NCBI GenBank assembly: GCA_001789205.1
Contig: MFYT01000097.1
Coordinates: 36,549-95,621 of the forward strand
Reading direction: 5' to 3'
DNA length: 59,073 nt
Source: Candidatus Raymondbacteria bacterium RIFOXYA2_FULL_49_16
GTDB taxonomy: Bacteria; Fibrobacterota; OXYB2-FULL-49-7; XYB2-FULL-49-35
Shown: piece by piece, positions 22,606 to 36,490 of the stretch
Numbering within the stretch: the first letter of the stretch is position 1
Layout of the letters: every line of letters starts with the position of its first letter
Notes under the pieces: model-generated
The model's database searches: none
Seen by the model: only the letters and a program-made list of their open reading frames with translations
Told to the model about the DNA's origin: nothing
Translations under genes and position numbers: made by a program

Positions 22606-22815
22606 TTAAAAAAGATTGTTGATGACAAACCCGAAGGAAAAGACGGTGATGTATAAAAGCCAAACTAGCCTGATAGGATAATCGACATACATATCGGACG
22701 ATGTAAGGTCCTTGTTTTTTATTCTTTTCTGGAGCAATTCAATGTTCCTATACCAGGAAAACCCGGTCAATGTTATTGCCATCGCACCGACGATAAGTAT
22801 TATTGCTGTTTGCAT
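22606..22815 (-). CDS. Small membrane protein, 69 residues, two predicted transmembrane helices
   Basis: Not recognised. Helix 1 spans about residues 4-24 (ILIVGAMAITLTGFSWY) and helix 2 about 49-66 (LVWLLYITVFSFGFVI). Between them is a short hydrophilic loop with KNKDLTSSDMYVD. The gene abuts yicC directly (stop adjacent to the next start), so it is first in the yicC operon. A predicted promoter lies at 22854-22883. Upstream there is a strong minus-strand terminator and a possible structured RNA. It could be a YggT-like or TMEM-type helper, but nothing supports a specific name. Confidence 0.6.
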   Translation of the reverse strand: MQTAIILIVGAMAITLTGFSWYRNIELLQKRIKNKDLTSSDMYVDYPIRLVWLLYITVFSFGFVINNLF

Positions 22816-22853
22816 TGAACTCTAACCTTTTGTCTTTAAAATAGTTGCACAAG

Positions 22854-22885: not shown

Positions 22886-22914
22886 AAAAAAGGCAAGTTT
22901 TGCAACTTGCCTTT
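22886..22914 (-). terminator. Strong rho-independent terminator facing the minus strand, in a region with no minus-strand gene upstream
   Basis: An 11-base-pair perfect stem (arms 22889-22899 and 22904-22914) closes a GCAA tetraloop when read on the minus strand. It is followed by a six-T tract. On the plus strand only three Ts follow the stem, so the minus strand is the functional direction. No minus-strand protein gene lies between this point and the next plus-strand gene at 23120, so it most likely ends a non-coding transcript or acts as an attenuator of the yicC operon. Confidence 0.7.
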
Positions 22915-23008
22915 AGAGGTTGAAAAACAGAACTCGTTTTAACAGCGGCAAAAAAGGTTTTTGGGGAAGCTGTTTTGCCGCTCCACCAAGGGAAGGTGAT
23001 TTAAAACG
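22886..23008 (-). ncRNA. Candidate small RNA: three-way junction plus terminator
   Basis: Upstream of the terminator are three nested helices on either strand: P1 (22935-22942 with 23001-23008, 8 pairs), P2 (22944-22953 with 22973-22982, 10 pairs, 19-nt loop) and P3 (22984-22987 with 22995-22998, 4 pairs). The linkers are only 1, 1 and 2 nucleotides, which forms a compact three-way junction. A mutually exclusive pairing of AACAGC (22941-22946) with GCTGTT (22969-22974) overlaps P2. Together with the minus-strand terminator this suggests a transcript of about 120-130 nt. No known family was recognised, and no clear promoter was found near 23020-23050. A leader or attenuator is the alternative. 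Confidence 0.4.
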
Positions 23009-23119
23009 GTCCGCCTTCATATCATTTATCGGTTGAAGTTTGGCATCGCTTGAGAGCAAAATTGATTACATCCATGCTTTTTCCTGGATACTTTGGACGT
23101 TGTTTCTTATTTTTTAAAC

Positions 23120-28601: not shown

Positions 28602-28631
28602 TTACGAGGCGCGATGACCGCGCCAGTACCG

Positions 28632-28668
28632 GATTGTAGGGGTGGGTTTCAAACCCACCCCTACAATC
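28632..28668. repeat. Near-perfect REP-like palindrome, GGGTTTCAAACCC type (site 1)
   Basis: Two perfectly complementary 18-base arms (28632-28649 and 28651-28668) flank a single centre base, with the core GGGTTTCAAACCC. The same spacer holds the GTCGCCC-type palindrome. Between the two palindromes lies a GGCGCGATGACCGCGCC-like segment that resembles a piece found at 30955-30980. Confidence 0.85.
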
Positions 28669-28673
28669 TTCGG

Positions 28674-30884: not shown

Positions 30885-30921
30885 AGGTGCAGGGGCGGGT
30901 TTGAAACCCGCCCCTGCACCT
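30885..30921. repeat. Near-perfect REP-like palindrome, GGGTTTGAAACCC type (site 2)
   Basis: Arms of 18 bases (30885-30902 and 30904-30921) pair perfectly around one base, with core GGGTTTGAAACCC. It is a sibling of the palindrome at 28632, with C-G substitutions kept in both arms, as expected for compensating change. It lies in the spacer between the TIM-barrel gene ending at 31000 and the oxidoreductase at 30834. Confidence 0.85.
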
Positions 30922-36394: not shown

Positions 36395-36421
36395 AGTAAA
36401 ATAAATAATTTTATTTTATTT

Positions 36422-36437
36422 ATGCACCCGTGTGCAT
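36422..36437. promoter_or_regulatory. LacI-type operator palindrome over the lacI start site
   Basis: ATGCACCCGTGTGCAT is symmetric at 14 of 16 positions around a central CG, the hallmark of LacI-family operators. It begins just past the predicted -10 box and covers the expected transcription start about 28-43 bases before the lacI ATG. Confidence 0.7.
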
Positions 36438-36438
36438 T

Positions 36439-36467
36439 AATATAAACATTTTACGGGAAAAAAGCAA
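36439..36467 (-). promoter_or_regulatory. Predicted promoter of the lacI-thuA-oxidoreductase operon
   Basis: On the minus strand TTGCTT (36467-36462) and TATATT (36444-36439) are 17 bases apart. The -35 box lies inside the terminator hairpin of the upstream otsAB gene, and the operator follows the -10 box at once. Confidence 0.6.
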
Positions 36468-36480
36468 TAGGCTTTTTTCC
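36456..36480 (-). terminator. Terminator-like hairpin after otsAB
   Basis: A perfect 10-base stem (36456-36465 with 36471-36480) and a 5-base loop lie 10 bases after the otsAB stop on the minus strand. Six Ts are inside the 3-prime arm rather than after it, so termination efficiency is uncertain. It suggests that otsAB is a separate transcript from the lacI operon. Confidence 0.45.
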
Positions 36481-36490
36481 TGGACGTTTT

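Follow-up and report, generated by a model that had tools for sequence, protein, structure and literature searches.

A candidate three-way-junction small RNA with a predicted intrinsic terminator between divergent genes of a Candidatus Raymondbacteria bacterium

The systems closest to the locus described here are of two kinds. RsaE/RoxS (RF01820) are Gram-positive sRNAs with C-rich loops, independently transcribed and ending at intrinsic terminators, and C-rich sRNAs pair with purine-rich ribosome-binding regions. The purine, TPP and c-di-GMP-I riboswitch leaders combine a short-linker three-way junction with a terminator on the same strand. In a 59,073-nt stretch of contig MFYT01000097.1 of Candidatus Raymondbacteria bacterium RIFOXYA2_FULL_49_16 (the window), a compact folded stretch between two divergent genes (minus strand, 22886-23012) ends in a strong predicted terminator and resembles both. 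It is like RsaE/RoxS-type sRNAs in size, in its terminal hairpin with U-tract and in its unpaired C-rich segments; it differs in lacking sequence homology to them (14.8 bits, E 5.1, with the RF01820 covariance model, whose gathering cut-off is 79), in its three-way junction scaffold and in its host genome, which has no recognised Hfq or ProQ gene. With the riboswitch leaders it shares a short-linker junction followed by a same-strand terminator; unlike them, it has neither an Rfam match nor an anti-terminator, and its terminator precedes rather than follows the promoter match of the downstream operon.

In its minimum-free-energy structure the minus strand forms precisely a three-way junction and, after it, the terminator hairpin. 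The junction domain including the extended P1, delimited by this fold and by pair probabilities, spans 22930-23012 (-27.1 kcal/mol). Its closing stem P1 pairs the 5' arm at 23001-23008 with the 3' arm at 22935-22942 over 8 bp and, beyond a bulged base (22934), is extended by four further pairs (22930-22933/23009-23012), including a G-U pair possible on the minus strand only, the plus strand reading A.C there. P2 is a perfect 10-bp pairing of 22973-22982 (5' arm) with 22944-22953 (3' arm), closed by a 19-nt loop (22954-22972) that contains CUUCCCC, while the P3 hairpin (22984-22998) has 4 bp (22984-22987/22995-22998) and the loop UUCCCUU; both C-rich segments are unpaired in the fold. The stems meet through linkers of 1 nt (22943), 1 nt (22983) and 2 nt (22999-23000), and pair probabilities of P1-P3 in the minus-strand ensemble range from 0.73 to 1.0. 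A single-stranded linker, UGUUUUUCAACCUCU (22915-22929), unpaired in the ensemble, leads from the junction domain to the predicted intrinsic terminator (22886-22914, minus strand), which has a perfect 11-bp stem, a GCAA loop and six T. A preliminary description of this DNA had listed the three stems with these lengths and linkers, as well as the terminator hairpin with its GCAA loop and minus-strand T6, and the sequence bears out every one of these elements. The extension of P1 beyond the bulge was not among them.

With dinucleotide shuffles as reference, the minus-strand junction domain has a z-score of -3.85, 2 of 1500 shuffles being equally good, and the plus strand a weaker one of -2.8. 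Junction and terminator together give -4.37 on the minus and -4.74 on the plus strand, with none of 200 shuffles as good. Among all intergenic 83-nt segments taken from the genome itself, about 1.4% lie at z <= -3.5, and 18 of 128 intergenic regions (14%), each represented by several segments, hold at least one of them. Since so many intergenic regions score as well, the fold is not rare in this genome, and on its own it is a real but modest signal.

The terminator is the more distinctive feature of the locus. Strict criteria (perfect stem of at least 7 bp plus a T-run), applied to both strands of a 456-kb sample comprising the window and L128-L147, yielded 14 perfect-stem terminators; four are intergenic, three of these not behind a gene, and among the three the stem at 22886-22914 is the longest; under looser criteria this site is among nine intergenic sites with stems of at least 9 pairs, all of these counts depending on heuristic gene calls. 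The possession of a terminator of its own, as expected of an independent sRNA, is thus indicated by sequence prediction and by the rarity of such terminators in this genome. Genes, too, are seldom followed by an intrinsic terminator: of 349 heuristic gene calls in the same sample 3-5 were, the figure of 5 being that under looser criteria, which suggests that transcription termination in this genome relies mostly on other means, e.g., Rho.

The divergent neighbours are a putative secreted-protein gene on the plus strand (start at 23093 or later) and a minus-strand operon with the gene order 69-aa ORF, yicC, rpoZ-like ORF and coaBC. The yicC product carries the Pfam YicC-like N and C domains; the rpoZ-like ORF and coaBC are presumptive names that we assigned by reading their translations. 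The terminator sits 70 nt ahead of the 69-aa ORF, the first ORF of the operon, on the same strand. Directly downstream of it lies the best sigma-70-like match of the minus strand, TTGAAT-18-TATATT (22883-22854), with a score of 11.27 against 11.2 for the 95th percentile of best scores in shuffles. This is the predicted promoter of the operon, by consensus match only, and because it begins right after the terminator the RNA would end before the operon starts. The operon thus most likely begins beyond the RNA, which argues against a leader. Upstream of the presumed start of the RNA no sigma-70-like promoter was recognised, all of the best-scoring matches on the minus strand lying at or after the terminator, and no usable promoter consensus was obtained from the tRNA and SRP upstream regions. 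The missing recognisable promoter, in a search that covered the sigma-70-like type, genuinely weakens the case for an sRNA.

The only other genome of the same order (G001) retains the block of 70-aa ORF, yicC, rpoZ-like ORF and coaBC, but its divergent neighbour is another one and the RNA is absent. The 69-aa ORF of the window (22606-22815, minus strand) is clearly common to this block (70-aa ORF at L012:1283-1495), with shared residues such as IKNKD...SD.Y.DYPIR..WL.YI..FS.GF..NNLF. The ORF directly before yicC had no Pfam match in either genome and appears to encode an unnamed small conserved protein.

Searches for known families and relatives gave a consistent picture. No Rfam 15 family matched within the window at gathering cut-offs, in agreement with the earlier statement that no family of this shape and sequence was known; the best sub-threshold match by score was Srn266 (20.6 of 63 bits), and none of the loose-threshold candidates was credible. 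A divergent 6S RNA (RF00013) was rejected, there being no covariance match anywhere in the genome and the shape being unlike a hairpin of ~180 nt with a central bubble. The bacterial small SRP RNA (RF00169) of this genome is located elsewhere (contig C64, 65 bits). A search of the genome for a second copy, as expected of a CRISPR-associated RNA or dispersed repeat, returned chance fragments of 14-30 bases only, and no match among plasmids or phages pointed to a mobile origin. Neither blastn against 60 near genomes nor a covariance model built from the one sequence and run over 168 phylum genomes turned up a relative; four weak covariance hits (E 0.06-0.5), read base by base, had P1 or P2 broken or were low-complexity. 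The yicC-anchored loci recovered from genome contigs all belonged to other lineages (32-39% identity) and were uninformative for this RNA, and nothing relevant to this locus came from the literature on three-way-junction sRNAs rich in C or on YicC together with the sRNA RyhB. The candidate RNA thus appears, so far, to be restricted to this one species. Although the assembly is rated 100% complete, nothing in the genome reached the family thresholds for 6S RNA, Hfq or ProQ.

We give an even chance to the reading of this locus as an orphan, stand-alone, non-coding sRNA of ~125 nt with exposed C-rich segments that acts without Hfq or ProQ. Transcription would start at about 23013, proceed leftward and stop at the intrinsic terminator, which ends at 22886. 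The three-way junction would serve as a stabilising 5' scaffold that displays the C-rich loops of P3 and P2, and an open linker, CAACCUCU, would precede the U-tailed terminator. On the model of C-rich sRNAs, the RNA may pair with the purine-rich ribosome-binding regions of mRNAs. Since neither Hfq nor ProQ was recognised among the genes, it would do so without these proteins, or with another partner. Several observations favour this reading: the minus-strand fold is better than the plus-strand fold and includes a G-U pair in P1 specific to that strand; the perfect 11-bp T6 terminator, of a kind rare here, lies on the same strand; and the C-rich segments are unpaired in an organism that has AGGAG, GGAGG and AAGGA motifs before gene starts, AGGAG and GGAGG being enriched there. 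Counted against it are the unrecognised promoter, the want of a relative for covariation, a gene-like 48-codon frame and the similar scores of 14% of intergenic folds. If verified, the sRNA would offer a first handle on RNA-based regulation in this lineage, the genome having no recognisable Hfq, ProQ or 6S RNA; at present it is one orphan candidate, and this orphan status limits its significance. A bolder form, in which the locus specifies a new lineage-restricted three-way-junction sRNA that acts as an antisense RNA independently of Hfq and ProQ and may have a functional link to the neighbouring YicC (a family named endoribonuclease YicC-like by Pfam), seems to us quite improbable.

Among the alternatives, the best placed, though still unlikely, is that the terminator acts as an insulator, shielding the yicC promoter against leaky leftward transcription out of the divergent promoter region, and that the fold upstream of the terminator is functionless. 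The position of the terminator immediately before the yicC promoter match fits this explanation, as do the lack of a recognised promoter for a dedicated sRNA, the equally good folds of other intergenic regions and the lack of detected conservation. It accounts less well for a junction that so few shuffles match and whose pair probabilities are near one, and for the presence of a strong terminator in a genome where such elements are rare even behind genes.

Distinctly unlikely is a short mRNA for a protein of 35 or 48 residues (MKADRFKSPSLGGAAKQLPQKPFLPLLKRVLFFNL when read from the ATG), its stop codon directly followed by the terminator. The corresponding 48-codon frame (22913-23059, minus strand, TTG start; 35 codons from the ATG at 23020) is open across the whole junction domain and its stop codon touches the terminator stem, so that the preliminary remark that no minus-strand gene lies upstream of the terminator holds for genes of ordinary size and fails for this frame, which ends there. 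Its codon score of 0.103 per codon compares with a gene mean of 0.111-0.120, but of the intergenic frames free of stop codons 22% do as well, and a strong coding signal relative to mononucleotide shuffles vanished when real intergenic frames served as the control. No AGGAG-type Shine-Dalgarno-like sequence lies upstream, although the genome uses one; no credible protein relative was found in 168 genomes, nor any Pfam match, and perfect inverted repeats within a reading frame would be unusual.

Less probable again is a leader of the plus-strand gene, in which the structure would form within the 5' untranslated region of the plus-strand transcript. Transcription from a promoter match on that strand, TTGAAC-16-TAAAAT (22815-22842), would give an RNA of this kind, and the plus-strand fold that includes the first hairpin has the z-score of -4.74 given above. 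The promoter score of 10.25, however, is below the 90th percentile of the shuffles' best scores (10.8), the junction alone folds better on the minus strand, the T-run is confined to the minus strand, and ~80-110 nt would still separate the fold from the start codon.

The preliminary description had offered an sRNA and a leader or attenuator of the yicC operon side by side, and had pointed to an alternative pairing as in switching RNAs. The competing 6-bp pairing (22941-22946/22969-22974, AACAGC/GCTGTT) does exist in the sequence, but it has an ensemble probability of ~0, and structures that include it reach at best -33.7 kcal/mol, against -43.0 kcal/mol without it, a difference of 9.3 kcal/mol. 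In the best of them the terminator hairpin is unaltered and no anti-terminator forms, so that the mutually exclusive terminator and anti-terminator folds of similar energy expected of a riboswitch or attenuator are not seen. A 5' leader, attenuator or riboswitch of the operon from the 69-aa ORF to coaBC, with the terminator as expression platform, is therefore a long shot despite the shared strand, the 70-nt spacing and the competing pairing, given the promoter match after the terminator, the untouched terminator, the order-mate's operon without the RNA and the lack of a riboswitch match in Rfam; of the two original proposals, the independent sRNA is the better supported.

Elsewhere in the window, two near-perfect intergenic palindromes (28627-28672 and 30885-30921) have the form GTAGGGGTGGGTTT-CAA-ACCCACCCCTAC. 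This sequence has 16 matches at E <= 0.001 on nine contigs of the genome, the strands of the palindrome being counted apart, and appears to be a REP-like dispersed repeat. Strong tandem hairpins were also observed at 36405-36490, with a z-score of about -6.9 on the plus strand.
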